Shown piece after piece: positions 22,413 through 27,482 of a stretch of 34,106 bases of DNA. Location: the NCBI RefSeq assembly GCF_001936595.1, contig NZ_MLBG01000042.1:1-34106 (forward strand). The letters are read 5' to 3'. The stretch comes from Desulfovibrio sp. DV. GTDB taxonomy: Bacteria; Desulfobacterota; Desulfovibrionia; Desulfovibrionales; Desulfovibrionaceae. The position numbers were made by a program, and so were the translations under genes. The notes below the pieces were generated by a model. The model did not search any database. It was not told the DNA's origin and saw only the letters and a program-made list of their open reading frames with translations. Each line of letters begins with the position of its first letter. The stretch's first letter is position 1.

Positions 22413-23288
22413 CTATTCGAAGAGCTTTTTGATGTCCGGGTCGGCCGGGAAGGTCTCATCCAGATTGATGACCTCGGCCTTGAAGGTGCCGTTCGGGGTC
22501 CAGGTGAAATCCGCTGCGCCGGGCAGGGCGAGCAGGTCCAGGCGGTTGACGGTCTTGCCCCGGGTATAGGCCCTGGCCCACAGGGTCTTGCCCCCGGGAC
22601 CGGCCTTGCCGGCGTTGCCGGCATTGATGCCGCTGCCAAGGAGCACATCCAGGGCATCCGGGTGGGCGGTCAGGAAGGCCTCTTCGTCCATCATGCCCAG
22701 GCCGCTGAGGCCGATGACCAGCTTGGCCTTGGTGCGAAGCTCCCTGGCCGCCTTGGCCACGGCGTCGCCGATGGCTGGCGGGGCCGGTTTGGTCAGATCC
22801 GGCGGCGGCGGGAAAAAGACAATGCCGATGGTCGTGCCGGCCGCCTCGACTACCGTGGTCCGCGGCGTGGTGTCGGCCACGGTGAACCCGGCCGGAATCG
22901 GAGCCTGGGCGCTTTTGAGATAAGCGGCCTCGTCCGGGAGCAGGGCCCCGGCCGTATAGCCGGTAAGCGTCAGGGCCTGGCTGATGGCCGGCAGCCGGCG
23001 TGCGTCAGGCCTTCTGTCCGGTCCGTCGGGGAGAATTTCAAAGGGAGCGCCAAGAACCAGGGTGCGTTCGCGGCCGGCTTCCGTTGCGCGAAGGGATTTG
23101 ATGAAGGTGGCCCGCCGGGCCAACCCGCCAACGAGCTTGCCGCCTCAGGACGGGCAGGGCTCGTAGTTGCCGTAGGTGTTGCCGGAAAGGACCAGGGTCA
23201 GGACCGGCTCCTGGGCATGTACCGGCAGGGCGGCGCAAAGGGCCAGGATAAGGGCCGAAACGGCCGCCTGGACAGGGCGGAAAAGCAT
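22413..23288 (-). CDS. Probable selenoprotein: periplasmic degenerate UshA-like protein with CxxU motif (TGA at 23145-23147 read as Sec)
   Basis: Read through the in-frame TGA, this is a 291-residue protein with Sec at codon 48. Start is the ATG at 23288; a GTG at 23294 has the better-spaced GAGG. Residues 1-25 are a signal peptide (cleavage near VHA-QEP). The N-terminal region reads LVLSGNTYGNYEPCPS, then the TGA, then GGKLVGGLARRATFIKSL. The sister protein at 23415 has CPTC followed by LGGLARRAT at the same place, so the TGA replaces its second Cys, giving C45-P-S-U48. Similarity to the sister continues to the C-terminus (DVLLGSG, LWARAYTRGKTVNRLDLLALPG). A SECIS-like hairpin follows the TGA. 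A plain nonsense mutation is the alternative. Conventional gene calling would split or truncate this gene. The function is unknown; a periplasmic redox role is inferred from the CxxU motif. Confidence 0.8.
23106..23125 (-). promoter_or_regulatory. Candidate bacterial SECIS hairpin
   Basis: On the mRNA, beginning 19 bases after the UGA, GGU pairs with ACC, a single U bulges, GGCCC pairs with GGGCC, and the loop is GGC. The layout (GGU, bulged U, short stem, G-starting loop, ACC) parallels the E. coli fdhF SECIS, which directs SelB to a UGA. The loop G is about 28 bases past the UGA, further than in fdhF but, as I recall, within the range accepted for bacterial SECIS elements. This comparison was made by eye. 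Confidence 0.6.
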
Positions 23289-23414: not shown

Positions 23415-24284
23415 TTATTTGAGAAGGGCCTCAACCGCCGCATCCTGGGGAAAATTTTCGTCCAGGGGATCGACCTTGGCTGTGAAGTTTTCGCCGATTT
23501 TCCAGGTAAAGCCCGGTTTTCCGGGCAGAGCCGTCAAATCCAGGCGATTGATCGTTTTGCCCTTGATGTAGGCCCGGGTCCACAGGGTGCGGCTGTCCTT
23601 GGAGAGCCGGGAGGCAAAACCCGAACCGCCGCCGCTGCCAAGCAGCACGTCAACGGCTCCGCTCCTGGTGTTGATGAAGGCTTCCTCGTCAATGGCTCCC
23701 CAGGGGCTCACGCCGACCACCAGGGCGACCTTGCCCCGCAGCTCGGAAGCGGCTTTGGCCGTGGCGTCCATGAGTTTGTCCGGCACCACGGCGCTTATGT
23801 CCTTGGGCATGGGGAAATAGACCAGCCCGATCGTCTGGCCGCCCACGTTGACCACGCGGGTCACCGGGGCGTCGCCGAGCAGTTGGGCTCCCTTGGGTAG
23901 GGCGGCCTTGCGCTCGGACAGGATGGCCATTTCCTGGGGGGTCACAGCCATGGCGTCATAGGCCAGACGCTCATGGGCCTTGGCCACGACCGGCAATTTG
24001 TCGGGTTCCGGCGGCGCGGCCGAGACTTCGGGGGCAAATTCCCACGGTCCGGCCACAGCCAGCAGCTTGCCGGCGGTGGGGCCGCTTTTGCGCAGGTTCT
24101 CCACAGCCGTGGCCCGTCGGGCCAGGCCGCCGAGCTTCTGCGGACCGCAGGTGGGGCACGGGTCAAAATAGCCGTAGGTGTTGCCGGCGTAGAGAATGGT
24201 CAGGACCGGGTCGGCGGCAAAGGCCGCAACCCCGGTTGCTGTCGTCAGAACCAGGGCCAGAAGCAGGGAAGTCAGTGTTGGCAT
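23415..24284 (-). CDS. Periplasmic degenerate UshA-like protein with CxxC motif (Cys paralogue of the selenoprotein)
   Basis: A 289-residue protein from the ATG at 24284; the frame before it belongs to the HU gene region. Residues 1-24 are a signal peptide (AFA-ADP). The fold can be followed along UshA/5'-nucleotidase-type metallophosphatases, but the metal-site motifs are changed. The N-D-x-H-G block is replaced by GNTYG (34-38), the GD block by GP (79-80), GNHE by TPQE (115-118, in YDAMAVTPQEM), and the GGHxH block by GSGGG (216-220). RLDLTALPG follows as in the family. C43 and C46 form CPTC. So it is probably not a phosphatase; a redox or binding role is inferred. It begins 4 bases after the HU stop and is likely co-transcribed with HU. 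Confidence 0.8.
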   Translation of the reverse strand: MPTLTSLLLALVLTTATGVAAFAADPVLTILYAGNTYGYFDPCPTCGPQKLGGLARRATAVENLRKSGPTAGKLLAVAGPWEFAPEVSAAPPEPDKLPVVAKAHERLAYDAMAVTPQEMAILSERKAALPKGAQLLGDAPVTRVVNVGGQTIGLVYFPMPKDISAVVPDKLMDATAKAASELRGKVALVVGVSPWGAIDEEAFINTRSGAVDVLLGSGGGSGFASRLSKDSRTLWTRAYIKGKTINRLDLTALPGKPGFTWKIGENFTAKVDPLDENFPQDAAVEALLK

Positions 24285-24288
24285 AGGG

Positions 24289-24564
24289 TCACTTGTTGAG
24301 ATATTCCTTGAGTTCTTTGCCGGGACGGAAGAACGGCAGTTTTTTGGGAGCCACGGTGACCACGTCGCCGGACTTGGGATTGCGCCCGGTGTAGCCCTTG
24401 TACCCCTTGATCTTGAAGCTGCCAAAGCCCCGTATTTCCACACGGTCTTCGTTAATCAGCGCCTGTTTGACGGAGTCGACAAAGGCATTGACGATGTCGG
24501 CGGCTTCGTCGATGTGCAAGCCTTTGGTTTCGGCCAGGGTCTTGATGAGTTCGCTTTTGTTCAT
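24289..24564 (-). CDS. HU/IHF-family DNA-binding protein
   Basis: A 91-residue protein, the standard length, with GAGGA 7 bases before the ATG. It starts MNKSELIKTLAETKGLHIDEAADIVNAFVDSV and has the beta-arm region VEIRGFGSFKIKGYKGYTGRNPKSGDVVTVAPKKLPFFRPGKEL, the HU signature; the RNP tip that intercalates DNA is present (GRNPKSG). It forms dimers that bend DNA and organise the nucleoid. Whether it is HU-beta or an IHF-like subunit cannot be decided. It leads the operon with the two UshA-like genes. The 112 bases upstream hold a CCCGCC/GGCGGG hairpin (24600-24615) and presumably its promoter. Confidence 0.95.
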   Translation of the reverse strand: MNKSELIKTLAETKGLHIDEAADIVNAFVDSVKQALINEDRVEIRGFGSFKIKGYKGYTGRNPKSGDVVTVAPKKLPFFRPGKELKEYLNK

Positions 24565-24676: not shown

Positions 24677-25507
24677 TTACTTGCGAATTACCGGTATTTT
24701 TCCGAGAACCGGGCCGGCGATGAGGGCCTCGCGTCGCTGTTGGCGCACCCTGTGGAGCTTGACGGCACCGCCGATAATGTCCTGGGCGGCCTGGCAGCGA
24801 GGAGCATGGCGTAAAAGCGGAATCTGGCGGCGCACGGCGTCGGGCACGGCCGGATCGGAGTGCACGCCGCCGATAAGGACCGGCGTGAAGCCCAGGAAAT
24901 GGCTGCAGGCGGCCGAGAGGCGGTTGAAGGTGGCCTGGGTGTCGGCCGGGCTTTCCACCTGATTGACGAGCACGTGGAAGTCGGAAACGCCGTACTGGGT
25001 GTGGAGCACCTTGATGACGGCGTAGGAGTCGGTCAGGGATGTGGGTTCGGGAGTGACGACCAGGACGCGCACCTGGCTCATGGCGGCGACCGATAAAACG
25101 GTCTGGGAAATGCCGGCCCCAAGATCGAGCATGAGGTAGTCGTAGCTGCCAAACACGGCGTTGAGCTTGTCAAAAAGCACTTCGCGCATGTCATCGTCCA
25201 TTTCGAGCAGTTCGGGCACGCCGCTGGCTGCCGGCAGAAAGTCGAAGCCGCCCGGTTCCACGGCCAGCATCACGTCCTGGGCCTGCACGTCGGGGCGGAA
25301 AAGGTCCTGGAGGTTTTTTTCCGGGGACAGGCCAAGCAGCACGTCCACGTTGGCCAGGCCGACATCGAAGTCCATCAAAAGGACGCGATGGCCGGCCCGG
25401 AACAAGGCGTAACTCAGATTGAGGGCCAGATTGGTTTTTCCCACGCCGCCCTTGCCGCTTAATATGGCCACGGCCAGAGTGGCGTTGGGATTAGGGACTT
25501 GGGACAT
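24677..25507 (-). CDS. MinD/ParA-family ATPase (FlhG-like)
   Basis: A 276-residue protein. I chose the ATG at 25507, for which AAAGGA lies 11 bases upstream; an ATG at 25519 overlaps the previous stop but has the site abutting it. The deviant Walker A is at about 18-25 (GKGGVGKT), followed by VLLMDFDVGLANVDVLLGL and YLMLDLGAGIS. Members of this subgroup without an obvious C-terminal membrane helix are often FlhG/YlxH, which control flagellar number with FlhF; MinD or another positioning ATPase is also possible. No flagellar or min genes are adjacent. It follows the GGDEF gene with almost no gap, so the two are co-transcribed. Confidence 0.85.
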   Translation of the reverse strand: MSQVPNPNATLAVAILSGKGGVGKTNLALNLSYALFRAGHRVLLMDFDVGLANVDVLLGLSPEKNLQDLFRPDVQAQDVMLAVEPGGFDFLPAASGVPELLEMDDDMREVLFDKLNAVFGSYDYLMLDLGAGISQTVLSVAAMSQVRVLVVTPEPTSLTDSYAVIKVLHTQYGVSDFHVLVNQVESPADTQATFNRLSAACSHFLGFTPVLIGGVHSDPAVPDAVRRQIPLLRHAPRCQAAQDIIGGAVKLHRVRQQRREALIAGPVLGKIPVIRK

Positions 25508-25515
25508 AGGCCGTG

Positions 25516-26385
25516 TCATCCTTTTATTGATCCGGTAAAGAGGAAGCGTTTTTCGTCGGCGCGCACCAGGGTCTTTTCCGGCGGCGCGGTCAGATCGGCG
25601 ATGGGGGCGCTGTGGAGCCGGTCCTTGCCTTGGGCCTTGGCCGTATAGAGCGCGTCGTCAGCCATGGCGTAGAGCTTTTCCCAGGTGATGGCCAGCTTGC
25701 CCTTAGTGCAGGCGATGCCGGCCGAGATGGTGACCCGAAGCGGCATGTCCACGCCGTCGCAGATGATGCGAAGCGACCGGGCCGACTCGATGAGCCGCTC
25801 GATGACGCCCTCGGCCCGCACCAGCCCGACGCCGGGCAGGATCAGGGCGAATTCCTCGCCGCCAATACGGGCCGCGTAGTCATAGGTCCGCTTTTCAGCG
25901 GCCAACAGCGCGCCCATGGTGGCGATCACCCGGTCGCCGCAAGGGTGGCCGTAGGTGTCGTTGACCAGCTTGAAATCGTCGAGGTCGATCAAAACCAGGG
26001 CCAGGGACTGGCCGGAACGGGCCGAACGGATCAGTTCGGCCGCCAGGATGCGCTCGAAGGCTCCCCGGTTGTGGAGCTTGGTCAGGGGGTCGTGCTCGGA
26101 AAGAAAAACAAGGTCTTTGAGCGTCTGCTGGATACGGGTCAGATAGGGAAACGGATTGGCGGACAGGGGCAGGGCCATCCAGTCGCGCAGATCCCGGCGG
26201 TTGCGCAGGCTTTCCCACTCGGGAAGGGTCAACCCCGAGCACAGGCGCATGATGACCAGCCCGTCGCCCTCGACGGCGCAGTCCGGTTTGTCCACCGTCG
26301 CCAGCATCCGACGCAGGGCGTCGAGTTCGGCCAGCAGGGCCTCGTCCGGAAAATCCGACGAACAGTCGGTATCAGCGGGTTTCAT
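25516..26385 (-). CDS. Diguanylate cyclase (GGDEF domain)
   Basis: A 289-residue soluble protein; the ATG at 26385 overlaps the prfB stop by 14 bases. Residues 1 to about 90 are a domain I do not recognise. The GGDEF domain follows: FLSEHDPLTKLHNRGAFERIL, IDLDDFKLVNDTYGHPCGD and active site GGEEF (175-179). RTYD at 166-169, five residues before it, is a canonical inhibitory c-di-GMP site, so the enzyme should make c-di-GMP from two GTP with product feedback. The nearby PilZ protein at 30196 could be one receptor. It has no membrane segment. Confidence 0.9.
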   Translation of the reverse strand: MKPADTDCSSDFPDEALLAELDALRRMLATVDKPDCAVEGDGLVIMRLCSGLTLPEWESLRNRRDLRDWMALPLSANPFPYLTRIQQTLKDLVFLSEHDPLTKLHNRGAFERILAAELIRSARSGQSLALVLIDLDDFKLVNDTYGHPCGDRVIATMGALLAAEKRTYDYAARIGGEEFALILPGVGLVRAEGVIERLIESARSLRIICDGVDMPLRVTISAGIACTKGKLAITWEKLYAMADDALYTAKAQGKDRLHSAPIADLTAPPEKTLVRADEKRFLFTGSIKG

Positions 26386-27482
26386 TGCCGACGCTAAGGA
26401 GGAAGCCGCGGATGAATTTGTCCAGTTCGCCGTCCAGCACCGCTTCGACGTCTCCGGCATCAACGCCGGTGCGATGGTCTTTGACCAGTCGGTAAGGCTG
26501 CATGGTGTAGGTCCTTATCTGGGAACCGAAGCCAATGGCGTTTTTGGAATCGTAGTTTTCCTGCTTTTCGGCCTGGATCTTTTTCAGTTCCAGATCGTAG
26601 AGCCGGGCCTTTAACACCTTCATGGCCGATTCTCGGTTGCGGTGCTGCGACTTCTCGTTTTGGCACTGCACCACGATATTGGTGGGGAGGTGCGTGATGC
26701 GGATCGCCGACGAGGTCTTGTTGACGTGCTGGCCGCCGGGACCCGAGGCCCGGAACACATCAACGCGCAGGTCGTCATCCTTGATGTCGATATCAATGTC
26801 TACTCCAGCATCGGGGTAGACGTCTACTGAGGCAAACGACGTATGGCGTCGTCCCGAGGAATCAAAAGGCGAAATACGGATCAGGCGGTGGATGCCTTTT
26901 TCCGCAGCCAACAGACCGTAGGCATAGGGGCCGGAAATCTGCAGGGTGACGCTTTTGACGCCAGCCTCGTCGCCGGGTAGGAAATCGAGCAGCGAGACGG
27001 TGAACTGCTTGCGCTCGGCCCAGCGGCGGTACATGCGCAGGAGCATTTCGGCCCAGTCCTGGGCTTCGGTGCCGCCGGCCCCGGGGTGGATTTCCAAAAT
27101 GGCGTCGGCATTGTCTTCGGGACCGAAAAAAGCGGCCAGTTCGGCATCGGCCAATTCGGCCCGCAGGGATTCGATCTGCTCGGCCAGGGCGTCAAGGACT
27201 TCAGGGCTGTCGTCGTCCTTGGCCATGCCCAGCCATTCATCGAGATCGGCCTTGGCGGCAAGCAAACGCTCTCCGTCGCCGACCTTGCCGGCCAGCACGC
27301 TTTTTTCCCGCAAAACCGGGGTCAGGCGTTCGGGATTGTCCCAGGCGCCGGGTTTGGACAATTCGGCCTCAATGGCGGCCAGGCGTTCTCGGCTTTTGTC
27401 CAGGTCAAAGACGCCTCCAGAGTTCCTCGAATTTCTCCAAAAGTTCCGTACCCTGGCTGCGCAGTTCCGAATATTGCAACAT
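26372..27482 (-). CDS. prfB: Peptide chain release factor 2, with programmed +1 frameshift
   Basis: Translation starts at the ATG at 27482 ([22 protein letters not shown]), reads 25 codons to CTT, then meets TGA (27405-27407). Slipping forward one base gives GAC and continues in the frame that ends at 26372, for a total of 369 residues. The junction reads [12 protein letters not shown], as in other RF2 proteins. Functional motifs are SPF (204-206, UGA/UAA recognition) and GGQ (249-251, peptide release). RF2 ends translation at UAA and UGA, and its own UGA shift site makes synthesis self-limiting. It starts 20 bases after the lnt stop and overlaps the GGDEF gene. Confidence 0.96.
27405..27418 (-). 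promoter_or_regulatory. prfB programmed frameshift site
   Basis: On the mRNA, a Shine-Dalgarno-like GGAGG (27414-27418) is separated by one codon (CGT) from CTT TGA C. This is the conserved RF2 autoregulatory arrangement: when RF2 is scarce the ribosome slips +1 on CTT. Confidence 0.95.

Follow-up and report, generated by a model that had tools for sequence, protein, structure and literature searches.

A probable CxxU selenoprotein gene in tandem with its cysteine paralogue in a Solidesulfovibrio genome

The locus and its reading frame

The window, by which we mean the whole stretch of 34,106 nucleotides analysed here (contig NZ_MLBG01000042.1, positions 1 to 34,106), comes from Desulfovibrio sp. 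DV, which its nearest named relatives, S. aerotolerans and S. magneticus, place in the genus Solidesulfovibrio. On its minus strand lies a reading frame with one internal TGA, adjoined by a paralogue with Cys in the corresponding place and by several genes that recur beside the family in other genomes. The features needed for what follows are these:

22413..23288, minus strand: UshA-like selenoprotein family 2 gene, an open reading frame with a read-through TGA (291 aa, predicted Sec at residue 48)
23147-23145, minus strand: in-frame TGA, putative Sec codon 48 in CPSU, at a column that is TGA in 116 of the 142 homologous domains
23214..23288, minus strand: probable signal peptide spanning roughly the first 25 residues, with VHA at its end (by eye from the translation)
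23108..23136, minus strand: putative bSECIS-type hairpin stretch, lowest-energy hairpin -11.4 kcal/mol
23415..24284, minus strand: tandem Cys paralogue (CPTC), also of NF049981 (282 bits, cut-off 140)
24289..24564, minus strand: HU-family DNA-binding protein gene, conserved upstream neighbour
24677..25519, minus strand: MinD/ParA-type ATPase gene, conserved upstream neighbour
25516..26463, minus strand: GGDEF protein gene, conserved upstream neighbour

The translated frame is open from the ATG at 23288 to the TAG at 22415-22413, with the single internal TGA and no other stop, and a GTG stands in frame 6 nt upstream of the ATG. Conventional gene calling would yield an 86-aa fragment that starts with GTG (23405-23145) and an open reading frame of 236 aa with a TTG start at 23123. 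A preliminary description of this DNA had predicted this split, together with the frame, the position of the TGA and a correspondence between CPTC in the paralogue and CPS-TGA here; translation reproduces the coordinates, and in the alignment of the two proteins (42% identity) CPTCG falls opposite CPSUG. The product would be a putatively exported protein of 291 aa with a CPSU motif, and in an AlphaFold2 model a helix at residues 3-19 falls within the putative signal peptide.

Read through, the protein matches the NCBIfam model NF049981, 'UshA-like (seleno)protein family 2', over positions 1-262 of 262 with 275.6 bits, the cut-off being 140. The table of a review of May 2026 (PMC13188914) gives NF049981 as a CxxU family with WP_420705249.1 as its example and the entry 'GenBank annotated', and also contains the CxU family NF041198, while a UshA-like CxU group was already present in an ocean survey of 2008 (PMC2398784). 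Since the family is catalogued and these entries exist, the kind of protein is already known, and sequence comparison places the gene in the catalogued family NF049981 and not in a new one. The preliminary description was therefore only partly right in calling the selenoprotein overlooked: plain gene calling breaks the gene in two and our analysis supports the whole gene as a selenoprotein, but the family already stands in NCBIfam and in the 2026 table. What we add to the catalogue is a tandem duplication placed in the genus ancestor, a conserved chromosomal place, a 5'-nucleotidase-like fold and an apparent loss of metal ligands. No functional study of the NF049981 family was found in the open-licence PMC literature; a sequence search of solved structures with the Sec protein gave no match up to E 1, and a search of a plasmid collection gave none at E 1e-5.

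The position of the gene on the chromosome was compared over 80 loci with long flanking sequence (two loci from some genomes), and at least 74 of these have one or more genes of a conserved set. Because the loci end short of the full flanks, the counts for single neighbours are lower bounds: upstream and on the same strand, HU is found in at least 57 loci, the MinD-like ATPase in 64, GGDEF in 62, RF2 in 67 and Lnt in 63, and downstream DapF is found in at least 36 and DapA in 49 (DapA is not counted toward the 74; Lnt, RF2, DapA and DapF were named by eye from sequence). Four of the six loci without the conserved set are second Cys paralogues. By this comparison the locus is apparently ancient and passed on vertically, and its conserved neighbours give no hint of a redox role. 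The upstream prfB carries CTT TGA C at 27405-27410 (minus strand) after a GGAGG stretch, which we take to be the programmed-frameshift motif of prfB, and the open reading frame at 26372-27361 is the portion of prfB after the frameshift.

Homologues, decoding machinery and the RNA after the UGA

A scan of 161 loci, made up of loci from a search of 149 genomes, additional fetched loci, machinery loci, 4 loci from the nearest relatives and 28 new loci from the phylum (the best by score and so a biased sample), gave 142 distinct homologous domains in which, between conserved flanks, the codon aligned with the TGA is TGA in 116, Cys in 24 and something else in 2, namely L153, a fragment that does not contain the motif, and L065, a row whose CGC is aligned off the column. 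Trp does not occur at this column in any of the 142. The 24 Cys rows, which we sorted from homologue and locus data, comprise 14 tandem copies from the genus, 4 second paralogues beside a Sec copy elsewhere and 6 from genomes with the Cys form only. NF049981 has a match in 99 of 149 genomes, that of the window included, and exceeds its cut-off in 96; in a phylum sample of 395 genomes, 153 give a hit at E 0.001, and among the matches listed 6 genomes, again including our own, are above the cut-off and all belong to the same family of organisms. At the level of sequence, the conservation of the TGA column and the purifying selection after it (see below) confirm that the observation goes beyond chance.

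Five of the 116 Sec members (L098, L102, L152, L075 and L077) lack Cys throughout the four columns that precede the Sec, and the partner Cys is present in all 24 Cys members. These five members narrow the possible chemistry and, as read from the alignment, would count against an obligatory Cys-Sec bond. Two distant UshA-like relatives (L065 and L069) continue into CxxCH stretches like those of cytochromes c, a hint that related families may be linked to electron transfer. The L153 fragment (G023:C2:107100-107877) is a second copy split over two frames, through either decay or sequencing error, and three congeners have a separate family fragment that covers model positions 114-223 and contains an in-frame TAG (G011:C3:20701-21036, G013:C59:367-702 and G008:C37:17583-17918), perhaps the remnant of a further copy.

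The genome possesses the bacterial machinery for selenocysteine: searches find selA (607 bits) and selB (372 bits) on one contig and selD (330 bits), and tRNA-Sec (selC) is present with 83 bits and anticodon UCA. As selD itself carries one in-frame TGA (L010, G000:C39:9056-9973), SelD is probably a selenoprotein too. In a survey of 71 genomes hand-picked from the 149 searched, with a threshold of E 1e-60, selB turned up in every one of the 53 genomes that have the TGA form, in 2 of the 6 that have the Cys form only (of the other four, two are incomplete, at 74% and 85%) and in 10 of 12 without the family.

We propose that the UGA at codon 48 would be decoded as Sec by SelB and tRNA-Sec, aided by a hairpin just downstream. 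As a model of such a hairpin we used the bSECIS description of the review (PMC13188914), which our program implements as a stem of at least 4 bp, a loop of 3-9 nt with G among its first two bases and a distance of 16-37 nt from the UGA, counting hairpins of -7.5 kcal/mol or lower. A hairpin of this type occurs in 95 of the 116 Sec members, where synonymous nulls lead one to expect 43.8, and in 12 of the 24 Cys members, where 12.7 are expected; among the best loops, GGC (60) and GGA (22), 28 nt after the UGA, are the most frequent. Set against synonymous nulls, the folding z averages -0.75 over the 112 Sec members that are free of gaps, 95 of them lying below zero, and 0.04 over 22 Cys members. 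Codon choice follows the same division: in the tandem pairs of the genus the second Gly codon of GGLARR is GGG in all 14 Sec copies and in one of the 14 Cys copies (Fisher 7.5e-7, a value too small because the copies are related), and among the 116 Sec members GGG takes this place in 54, where the background frequency is 18.9%. By raw folding energy the Sec and Cys members cannot be told apart (means -20.3 and -21.3), and RNAalifold finds no common structure among 107 distinct Sec sequences (-0.11 kcal/mol), so the RNA argument is drawn from codon choice and from hairpins set against synonymous nulls, not from covariation.

In the window, the lowest-energy candidate hairpin has its loop at 23127-23119, 17 nt after the UGA (coordinates by hand), and the hairpin commonest in the family is also possible, with a GGC loop at 23116-23114, 28 nt after the UGA, on a stem UGGCCC/GGGCCA (by eye). 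This stretch folds no better than its shuffles (z -0.28), and the hairpin of the Cys twin satisfies the model too (-10.6 kcal/mol), so that the hairpin does not discriminate when this gene is taken singly. Across the family, the hairpin, codon and folding tests all indicate a constraint of bSECIS type after the UGA, and the codon choice shows a constraint at the RNA level from which the Cys copies are free.

The tandem pair and competing readings of the TGA

The tandem Sec/Cys pair is found in 13 of the 14 genus genomes searched, the fourteenth being 69% complete, and one of the 13 has two pairs, for 14 Sec and 14 Cys copies. In a midpoint-rooted tree of 117 rows of at least 200 residues (of the 23 rows left out, 22 come from outside the order and one is short), the Sec/Cys label changes 6 times; within the genus the Sec copies form the sister clade of the Cys copies (96/87), and a Sec-bearing group adjoins the two. 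Because the root was set at the midpoint, the direction from Sec to Cys is inferred from the surrounding Sec majority. The simplest reading of these sequences is that a Sec gene was duplicated in the genus ancestor and that a single change from Sec to Cys followed, which would make the gene in the window the half that kept Sec and its neighbour the Cys half. As a pair held at a conserved locus, the two genes are a natural experiment on the retention of Sec beside a Cys copy.

The adjoining Cys copy also lends itself to another history, in which the TGA is a recent nonsense mutation and the duplicate is becoming a pseudogene while the Cys paralogue does the work, and the Sec copies do evolve somewhat faster (median dN/dS over 91 pairs 0.46 in Sec copies against 0.29 in Cys copies). 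Yet TGA is found in all 14 Sec-type copies from the 13 genus genomes, our own included, as well as in the 116 domains above, Sec rows lie both within and outside the genus on the tree, and beyond the TGA the frame is under purifying selection (dN 0.054 and dS 0.267 between the window copy and its nearest congener), so that a pseudogene seems to us extremely improbable. It is very improbable, too, that the UGA is a true stop between two shorter proteins: the TTG at 23123, from which the second would begin, is in frame, but it is a Leu codon within a GGLARRA block conserved in Sec and Cys members alike, the TGA form accompanies selB, and the synonymous constraint after the codon is seen in the Sec and not the Cys members. 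No more credit is due to a UGA that another tRNA or near-cognate decoding would turn into Cys or Trp; most homologues that lack the TGA do have Cys there, but the genome has the full Sec machinery, selB is present in every tested genome with the TGA form, and Trp is absent from the column.

As judged from these comparisons, the gene is very probably a real selenoprotein gene, with UGA 48 specifying Sec. The preliminary description had offered this interpretation, suggesting a search for homologues with Cys or TGA at codon 48 and for selA, selB, selC and selD, and had named as contrary evidence a genome without the machinery, relatives that all carry Cys and a decayed frame downstream. Both searches came out in favour of its interpretation and none of the three contrary findings was encountered; the machinery, the TGA in relatives and the intact frame all support Sec, and selenium in the protein is predicted.

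Fold, metal site and comparison with known systems

The AlphaFold2 model, built with 8 sequences and with Cys in place of Sec, has a pLDDT of 82 and a pTM of 0.81, and Foldseek aligns it with CD73 (E 2.4e-11) and UshA (E 2.6e-9) at an rmsd of about 5 A; the predicted fold is that of a metallophosphoesterase, resembling the 5'-nucleotidases. The pLDDT of the CxxU loop is below 50, and for this reason the placement of CxxU above the former active site is a putative one.

By sequence alignment alone, we mapped onto the family the motifs DxH, GD, GNH, H and GHxH, which we take to be the ligand motifs of metallophosphoesterases. Among the 118 members from the order, Asp at 82 occurs in none (one has a gap), Asp at 37 in 9 and His at 196 in 3, and position 220 is Gly in 117; among 22 distant members, in which gaps are many, Asp at 82 occurs in 3 and His at 220 in 4. 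The Sec loop of the same 118 members is nearly invariant, with G54, G55 and R59 in all, R58 in 117 and C45 in 115. With the loop so constant and the ligand positions mostly changed, the conserved feature of these proteins is the Sec loop and not the metal site, and on this mapping the aligned metal-ligand residues appear to have been lost.

Sec could be real and the protein nonetheless a metal-dependent nucleotidase or phosphodiesterase, with Sec as a metal ligand or in a structural role. The likeness of the fold to 5'-nucleotidases and the ND, GD, H and GGH motifs of some distant relatives fit such an enzyme, but the changed residues at 82, 196 and 220 and the absence of Pfam hits up to E 1 with the Sec protein lead us to think it unlikely. 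We regard as highly likely, from the sequences compared, the joint explanation that the gene encodes a Sec-decoded member of NF049981, kept through the genus duplication, on a dead phosphoesterase scaffold. On this joint explanation, we infer that the protein would act in the periplasm as a selenol/thiol redox or selenol-ligand protein, that the former metallophosphoesterase scaffold would no longer hydrolyse phosphoesters, and that the reactive Sec would sit in the loop that formerly bore the first metal-binding motif. A more specific suggestion, which we make tentatively and with some doubt, is that a nucleotidase scaffold has turned into a periplasmic selenol enzyme in which the Sec loop replaced the first metal motif, sometimes without a partner Cys, and that Solidesulfovibrio keeps a Cys version alongside; if this is true, selenium supply or substrate would decide which copy, Sec or Cys, works.

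Among known systems, E. coli UshA and CD73 have a similar metallophosphatase-domain fold (query TM-score 0.59-0.63), but they share 13-18% identity with the window protein, whose length leaves no room for their C-terminal nucleotidase domain, whose aligned metal-ligand positions are not kept, and whose CxxU sits in the loop after the first strand. The selenoprotein family NF041198 (PCGU, CxU) has the Sec-loop block in common with the window protein (residues 13-70, E 3.1e-12), but the protein falls outside it, reaching 45.8 bits against a cut-off of 275, with 291 aa against a model of 519 positions and CxxU in place of CxU. With NF049981, in contrast, no feature was found that would exclude the window gene: it matches the whole model, the CxxU/CxxC motif is present as CPSU in the Sec gene and CPTC in the paralogue, Sec and Cys forms are common to both, and in this genus the two forms are seen side by side as a tandem pair.
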